Assembly: GCF_900112605.1 (NCBI RefSeq)
Contig: NZ_FOMJ01000003.1
Location: 124,001-188,000, forward strand
DNA: 64,000 nt
Reading direction: 5' to 3'
From: Thiohalospira halophila DSM 15071
Lineage (GTDB): Bacteria; Pseudomonadota; Gammaproteobacteria; Thiohalospirales; Thiohalospiraceae
Shown: positions 11,435 through 43,831 of the stretch, piece after piece
Layout: each line of letters begins with the position of its first letter
Position numbering within the stretch: position 1 is the first letter of the stretch
The notes under the pieces: generated by a model
What the model saw: the letters and a program-made list of their open reading frames with translations, nothing else
What the model was told of the DNA's origin: nothing
The model's database searches: none
Program-made: the position numbers and the translations under genes

Positions 11435-11556
11435 GGGTGCCCTCGGAGCGTTTCCAGAGCCCGGTATTCTGGCCGAAATGGCGGGGTTAGAAAAGCGAGA
11501 CCGACACCCTGGCCGGACAGTCATCTGCTCGCCCCGGAAGAGGCCCGGCGGATGGT

Positions 11557-11648
11557 ACGGGTCCCGGCTGCCAGGTCGTCGGCAGCAGGGATGCTGCCGT
11601 CGAGCCGACAGGGACGTTTTCACGGCGTACCTGGCAGCCGGGACCCGT
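11557..11648 (+). repeat. Structured palindromic repeat, copy A
   Basis: A perfect 20-bp inverted repeat (11557-11576 with 11629-11648) encloses a second hairpin. That hairpin has a 7-bp stem CGGCAGC (11580-11586), a loop AGGGAT (11587-11592) and GCTGCCG (11593-11599). A spacer containing ACAGGGA and ending CACGGCGT follows. Copy B at 43705-43831 (minus strand) shares the AGGGAT loop, the 23-base spacing between the two CAGGGA words and the CACGGCGT end. Its arm sequences differ but are equally perfect. Here the element lies between divergent sucC and the PP0621-family gene, so it is not a simple terminator. Confidence 0.85.
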
Positions 11649-11720
11649 GCCAGCCGCCCTCCAAATCCGGACGGCCACCGGCCCATTCCGGCCGTGGCCC
11701 CCAAGCGGTACCATGGCCCC

Positions 11721-43292: not shown

Positions 43293-43650
43293 AGAAGGAG
43301 CCGGTCGTTAAGCCGGGTTCTGTCGCGGACAGTCATTCGTCTGGGACGTGCGTCGCCGCACGCCTCAAGCAGCCTACCCGGGGGCGGATGCGGGCCACAC
43401 CGTCTGCCCCCCTATTCGGCCTTGCTCCGGGTGGGGTTTGCCGTGCCGCCGACGTTGCCGCCGGCGCGGTGCGCTCTTACCGCACCTTTTCACCCTTGCC
43501 GGCGCCCCGCGGGGCGCTTGGGCGGTCTGTTTTCTGTGGCACTTTCCGTCGGCTCGCGCCGCCCAGGCGTTACCTGGCACCCTGCCCTGTGGAGCCCGGA
43601 CTTTCCTCCGCGCCGCCCGATGGCGAAGCAGCGACTGCCTGACCGACTCC
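43293..43650 (-). ncRNA. rnpB: RNase P RNA (type A)
   Basis: The transcribed strand starts GGAGTCGGTCAGGCAGTCGC, matching the known 5' region. It contains the universal GAGGAAAGTCCGGGCTCC and GGTGCCAGGTAACGCCTGG, then CCCGGGTAGGCTGCTTGAG, and ends GACAGAACCCGGCTTAACG. The 5' GGAGTCGGTC (43641-43650) pairs with 3' GACCGGCTCC (43297-43306) as helix P1. It is the catalytic RNA that matures tRNA 5' ends. Its place beside rsmI is conserved in gammaproteobacteria. Ends are set from P1 and the promoter, so a few bases of error are possible. Confidence 0.97.
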
Positions 43651-43704: not shown

Positions 43705-43831
43705 GCGTCGGTTCCCGAACCCGGGGCAGGGTCCGTCAGGGACGCCGTGGATACCTCCCTGTAGGCTTGCGCGCAACATCCCTGTTGCGCGACACCCTGA
43801 CGGACCCTGCCCCGGGTTCGGGAACCGACGC
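43705..43831 (-). repeat. Structured palindromic repeat, copy B
   Basis: A perfect 37-bp inverted repeat (43705-43741 with 43795-43831) encloses an inner hairpin GCGCAAC-AGGGAT-GTTGCGC (43771-43790, read on the minus strand). A spacer with TACAGGGA, ending CACGGCGT, follows. Copy A at 11557-11648 has the same inner loop, the same 23-base spacing between CAGGGA words and the same CACGGCGT end. The two 29-base spacers match at about 23 positions. The arms are unrelated in sequence and length. It lies between the rsmI stop (25 bases away) and the rnpB -35 box (18 bases away). Confidence 0.88.

Follow-up and report, generated by a model that had tools for sequence, protein, structure and literature searches.

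YPAL elements are mobile intergenic repeats of approximately 167 bp (167-168 bp with RU-2) from Yersinia and Erwinia carotovora (PMC2229807). Their target duplications measure 3-26 bp, their targets span or adjoin dyad symmetry, and they are expressed together with upstream genes, possibly affecting the stability of the RNA of these genes (PMC2229807). Most Yersinia species carry 37-144 copies, and three matches occur in E. coli (PMC2847712). The sequence of RU-2, which is the same repeat as YPAL, is printed in PMC2759123. YPAL is known from Yersinia and a few relatives, and its function is not established in the literature consulted.

Here we describe an element of Thiohalospira halophila DSM 15071 that is a member or close variant of YPAL/RU-2, far beyond the described range of that family. 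Two copies, A and B, lie in the window analyzed, a stretch of 64,000 nucleotides (contig NZ_FOMJ01000003.1, positions 124,001 to 188,000). Membership follows from the printed RU-2 sequence, which has the same core (CGCGCCAAGGATGGCGCGGCTCGAGCCTACATGGATGTATTTACGGCGT), both GGA loops, and the GAGCCTACA...TTTACGGCGT block, and which folds alike, with two GGA hairpins within a long stem. Like YPAL, the element is multicopy and intergenic. A covariance model (R1) detects 44 copies of several subtypes in the T. halophila genome, rather than the two assumed in the first-pass annotation, and all 31 copies examined with a simple codon-based gene finder lie between genes. There are also differences. Copies in this genome measure approximately 112-130 bp, compared to 167-168 bp for YPAL, and their arms are free and unrelated in sequence, whereas those of the Yersinia subfamily are conserved. 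YPAL has been reported from Yersinia, Erwinia carotovora, and matches in E. coli, whereas the present element extends across many gammaproteobacterial families. While the kind of element is known, its range, its variants, and the function proposed below appear to be new.

Several other described systems share some of these features. Ysr224 (Rfam RF02770), a model of a Yersinia RNA that contains this core as its reverse complement, matches several copies, but on the opposite strand and below its gathering score (51.3 bits against a cut-off of 70, E 6e-10). CsrB/RsmZ-type RNAs likewise contain hairpins with GGA loops of the ANGGAN type. However, they concentrate many sites in one discrete RNA gene that has a promoter and a terminator, whereas here there are two sites in each dispersed repeat. 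As its name implies, the TwoAYGGAY RNA motif comprises a pair of hairpins with AYGGAY loops. It is listed in Rfam for gammaproteobacteria among others, and its covariance model gave no match up to an E-value of 10 on copies of the present element from several genera; the long closing stem and conserved bulge of the latter set the two apart. ERIC, REP, and other short repeats are likewise short, intergenic, palindromic, and non-autonomous, but their core sequences differ. REPs are 20-40 bp long with GTAG or CGTC tags (PMC3733652).

Anatomy, fold and strand preference

Copies A and B are the longest two near-perfect inverted repeats within the window. Their folding energies are -70 and -112 kcal/mol respectively, with z-scores of -8.8 and -14.0, and none of 200 shuffled sequences proved equally stable. 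On the basis of these scores and of their rank among the inverted repeats, the two palindromes are not products of chance. The RNase P RNA was the sole match when the window was scanned with Rfam at gathering thresholds. Copy A is flanked by two divergent genes, one sucC-like and the other a small ORF. Copy B has an rsmI-like gene on one side and that of RNase P RNA on the other, and is oriented in their direction; we take the names sucC and rsmI from our own reading of the translated sequences. Coordinates are provided in Table 1.

Table 1. Position and strand of the two copies, their parts, and the neighboring RNA gene, numbered from the first nucleotide of the window.
Feature	Position	Strand	Remark
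Copy A, whole element (type 1 hairpin)	11547..11658	+	
Copy A, P1 5' arm (long stem)	11547..11576	+	
Copy A, P1 3' arm	11629..11658	+	
Copy A, hairpin P2	11577..11602	+	CG-T-CGGCAGC / GCTGCCG-T-CG
Copy A, first ANGGAN hexaloop AGGGAT	11587..11592	+	CsrA-type site 1 (predicted)
Copy A, hairpin P3	11604..11626	+	GCC/GGC, 5-nt bulge TTCAC, GAC/GTT
Copy A, second ANGGAN hexaloop AGGGAC	11610..11615	+	CsrA-type site 2 (predicted)
Copy B, whole element	43705..43831	-	55 bp upstream of RNase P RNA gene, same strand
Copy B, P1 5' arm (37 bp, perfect)	43795..43831	-	
Copy B, P1 3' arm (37 bp, perfect)	43705..43741	-	
Copy B, first ANGGAN hexaloop AGGGAT	43778..43783	-	
Copy B, second ANGGAN hexaloop AGGGAG	43755..43760	-	
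RNase P RNA gene, class A	43293-43650	-	316 bits

The first-pass annotation had proposed that both copies share one architecture, and most of its particulars hold. The perfect outer inverted repeats of 20 bp (copy A) and 37 bp (copy B) are present, the former being the inner part of 30-bp arms that are 93% complementary. Both copies have the AGGGAT hexaloop, a second CAGGGA word 23 bases after the first, and CACGGCGT directly ahead of the closing arm. The inner hairpin had been given as 7 bp, which is its length in copy A; the stem of copy B has 8 bp. Likewise, the inner stems had been described as completely different, but CGGCAGC in copy A and CGCGCAAC in copy B differ in part only. The second GGA word likewise forms a hairpin loop, a feature overlooked in the first pass; the hairpins read GAC-AGGGAC-GTT and TAC-AGGGAG-GTA in copies A and B respectively.

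On the sense strand, a P1 stem of free sequence (approximately 24-41 bp) encloses hairpin P2, an unpaired A, hairpin P3, and a GU linker that precedes the closing arm. P2 is a hairpin of 7-8 bp with an ANGGAN loop. P3 starts with three base pairs (usually GCC/GGC), continues through a bulge of 5 nt (in general UUCAC or UUUAC) and another three base pairs (mostly UAC/GUA), and is capped by the second ANGGAN loop. Across 110 distinct sequences, 97.5% of cells are paired and 24 of the 27 pairs include double changes. The covariation score is 0.776, compared to 0.171 for shuffled data, and pairing falls to about a third if the partner columns are shifted by one. P3 itself covaries, occurring as UAC/GUA, GAC/GUC, CCC/GGG, UCC/GGA, and UGC/GCA. 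The stems are compensated, and the earlier suggestion of selection on a folded strand is borne out. A further subtype is represented in this genome by seven copies (L324-L329); their first loop is ATGGAY (AGGGAT in one copy), their P3 is shorter (GCGCCAGGGAYGGTCCTCGCGT), and their arms are 27-38 bp long and unrelated.

The arms reveal which strand is folded. Among 159 distinct arms, G-T pairs outnumber A-C mismatches by 204 to 31 (p 1e-32, with copies not all independent) and G-A mismatches outnumber C-T mismatches by 79 to 14. Mutation alone would be expected to produce G-T and A-C equally often. The excess of G-T therefore indicates that the GGA strand is selected as a folded single strand. 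This asymmetry argues for RNA or single-stranded DNA. It argues against a DNA cruciform, the other structure considered in the first pass, which needs pairing to be kept equally on both strands.

Hexaloops and predicted CsrA binding

Both hairpins present a C-[ANGGAN]-G hexaloop. In a set of 111 copies, the closing pair is C-G, loop positions 1, 3, 4, and 5 are A, G, G, and A in 109-111 copies for both loops, and positions 2 and 6 are variable in both. The flanking AC and GU are paired around the loops. The distance from the start of the first GGA motif to that of the second is 23 nt, which leaves 20 nt in between. The ANGGAN loop is that of RsmE/RsmN targets (PMC3791407). The published CsrA consensus is RUACARGGAUGU, sites 10-63 nt apart can be bridged by CsrA with an optimum over 18, and short CsrA hairpins were favored in SELEX. 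P3 (UAC-ANGGAN-GUA) matches the consensus more closely than P2, and the preference for short hairpins agrees with the 3 bp of P3, though not with the 7 bp of P2. From this agreement in sequence and spacing, we infer that the loops most likely serve in CsrA binding and that one CsrA/RsmA dimer probably binds both. While the first-pass annotation could assign no function, the family is now identified as YPAL/RU-2, and the agreement of its loops with the CsrA consensus suggests binding. No publication linking YPAL and CsrA was found in a search that missed most subscription literature.

With modest confidence, we favor a model in which a mobile, non-autonomous YPAL/RU-2 repeat acts through the RNA of one strand by dual-loop CsrA binding. 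The element is a short intergenic repeat whose RNA, from that strand, folds into a long stem of free sequence (approximately 24-41 bp), a three-way junction, and two hairpins. A CsrA/RsmA dimer would bind both C-[ANGGAN]-G hexaloops of one RNA molecule, and each transcribed copy would be a stable piece of CsrA-binding RNA. Such a copy may titrate CsrA, or may mark and protect its host transcript. If the dual CsrA site is conserved across gammaproteobacteria, what appears to be junk DNA would become a set of regulatory RNA sites; if the CsrA reading is true, the number of such sites would differ widely between related species. A stronger version appears unlikely to us. In this version, the copies would act as dispersed decoys, each genome's load (0 to over 100) would tune CsrA, and new copies would obtain fresh perfect arms through some copying mechanism.

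Distribution, genomic context and mobility

A pattern search of the T. halophila genome recovered approximately 35 plausible copies, compared to none for the reversed pattern that served as control, and model R1 was built from 21 pattern copies of this genome. Covariance searches of the genome and of relatives, as the first pass had recommended, yielded many further copies both in T. halophila and in other gammaproteobacteria. The hunch that intergenic elements with an ACAGGGA...ACGGCGT core occur elsewhere in this class was correct. The element was detected in 68 of 369 sampled gammaproteobacterial genomes. Other members of Thiohalospira's family have 0-2 copies each. One genus of six species has many copies in every genome, with counts from 120 up to 150 or more in the five that are nearly complete. 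When 398 genomes were sampled from the phylum, with the share outside the class not given, all 27 positives belonged to the same class.

The element is associated with csrA, which supports the CsrA reading by association only and may reflect no more than shared ancestry. Among genomes of good quality, csrA is present in 56 of the 57 that carry the element, compared to 224 of the 257 that do not (Fisher p 0.007). When all 68 element genomes are considered, five have no csrA, with 3.2 expected from incompleteness alone. One genome (G206, 98% complete, nine copies) gave no csrA match over the cut-off, a lax search included.

Some copies are arranged in groups. Copies often lie pairwise in opposite orientation, minus then plus and approximately 130-310 bp apart, as at L125, L126, L127, L150, L151, L021, L396, and other loci. 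Tandem arrays with a spacing of approximately 227 bp comprise six units at G557:C1:94432-95644 and three at L280:14409-14937. In Thiohalospira's family, two near-identical copies in the same direction lie 1.2 kb apart (L246; G011:C195:14810 and 16030), arranged as if bordering a small unit.

Read along the sense strand, the genes flanking 31 T. halophila copies are oriented ++ in 10 cases, -+ in 9, -- in 8, and +- in 4; the flanking-gene survey suggested in the first pass hence disclosed no bias, which is a poor fit to an obligatory 3'-end or leader element. Neither a promoter nor a terminator belonging to the element was seen, given that the flanks of type 2 and type 3 copies share nothing and that no T-run follows copies A and B. 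An intrinsic terminator was rejected because of the missing T-run and the unbiased orientation. More broadly, the strong hairpin might stabilize or terminate the RNA of an upstream gene, with the loops being secondary. Such a role would accord with the folding energies of copies A and B, with the co-expression of YPAL with upstream genes and its possible effect on RNA stability (PMC2229807), and with the location of copies directly behind the fumA terminator in Pantoea. We nevertheless consider it quite improbable: just 14 of the 31 copies have a co-directional gene upstream, 9 lie between divergent genes, copies A and B lack a T-run after the stem, and the invariant loops would be left without explanation. 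The RNA model, too, is weakest on this point in the present genome: the unbiased orientation implies that many copies would be transcribed in the sense direction only from some unseen promoter, and no conserved flank that could hold one was seen in type 2 and type 3 copies. A further point against the model is that Ysr224, the only related RNA on record, stems from the opposite strand.

The element is inserted as a whole unit in one other genus (g210), in which species differ by filled and empty sites. At the cleanest of these, site B, the hairpin lies inside terminal inverted repeats of approximately 23 bp with a short target duplication. In another genome (G046), the unit is flanked differently and is present in approximately 46 copies. 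Units that differ in their ends, such as those of g210 and G046, thus carry the same hairpin. Beyond the arms, the T. halophila copies share no common flank apart from short stretches in type 1. YPAL-like copies are present on plasmids of Klebsiella, Citrobacter, E. coli, Shigella, Pantoea, and Enterobacter, and copies are found on conjugative plasmids. Searches for empty sites yielded none for the Enterobacter and Klebsiella plasmid copies and no orthologous ones in Thiohalospira's family, where relatives are mostly 66-72% identical and intergenic DNA is not alignable; comparison within the genus Thiohalospira covered one species. A search of plasmids and phages with the T. halophila core was unproductive, as was a scan of viral contigs for CsrA. 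Compensated arm changes distinguish orthologous copies at fumA on Pantoea plasmids (e.g. CACGG/CCGTG against TACAG/CTGTA). The fumA-locus copy on P. agglomerans plasmid pAJ2b_A (L401) contains a second structured sequence, with a CAGGGATG hairpin, inside the P2 loop; the same copy in strain SUH1 is without this insert. A different hairpin-bearing insert of approximately 195 bp, with similar ends, occurs at the site L280:11333-11335 in three sister species (L293, L295, L296).

These insertions raise the possibility of a purely selfish repeat, in which a transposase would recognize folded single-stranded DNA or RNA, the loops and junction would be its site, and CsrA would be uninvolved. In favor of this are the insertions of entire units, with their inverted repeats and short duplications, the unbiased orientation of neighboring genes, and the patchy spread (0-2 copies in the family versus 44 here, and at least 120 per nearly complete genome elsewhere). 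In addition, conservation approximately equal to that of the loops extends to the junction A, the UUCAC bulge, and the GU linker, though CsrA would not need them and does not account for them. G-T, G-A, and G-G are the more stable mismatches in DNA too, so the asymmetry between G-T and A-C does not separate RNA from single-stranded DNA. However, the invariant and the variable positions of the loops coincide exactly with those of a known RNA-binding consensus. The terminal repeats vary between lineages while the core stays the same, and hence the core is not simply the end of one transposon-like unit recognized by one transposase. Single-strand transposases recognize hairpins much shorter than the 30-bp stems found here. 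On balance, we regard a selfish repeat as possible but doubtful.

Origin of the arms

The first-pass claim that the arms covary stands for comparisons between subtypes, between genera, and between orthologous Pantoea copies, all of which include compensated pairs. It does not stand, as simple site-by-site covariation, for T. halophila copies with the same core, whose arm identity is 0.35 compared to 0.38 for copies of different subtypes. For example, four type 2 copies have identical 52-nt cores, P2 included, within unrelated outer arms. Identical cores in unrelated perfect 30-bp stems present a defined problem of repeat copying.

Two simple solutions were rejected. Copying of the arms from elsewhere in the genome is contradicted by a search with 18 arm sequences across the T. 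halophila genome, which found no third copy of any. Very fast evolution of the arms is contradicted by nine orthologous comparisons in g210, in which, on these small numbers, approximately 1% of arm positions have changed, compared to 2% in flanks and 0.8% in the core. As arms change approximately as slowly as the core, and identical cores have unrelated arms, ordinary compensated drift is not an easy explanation.

Insertion of the core into the loops of pre-existing palindromes, whose arms would be target DNA, would yield identical cores with unrelated arms and recalls the YPAL targets reported to span or adjoin dyad symmetry (PMC2229807). This route is already disfavored and seems to us highly improbable, given that 181 kb of the T. 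halophila genome contain no perfect inverted repeat of at least 16 bp without the core and that the arms are absent from the empty allele of site B in g210. Either copying of the core may generate new arms, for example through fold-back copying of the target, or gene conversion between copies may homogenize the cores. The two arms also differ in composition: G and T are abundant in the 5' arm of most genomes and C and A in the 3' arm, and the arm mostly starts with G, with G318 and G188 as the exceptions.
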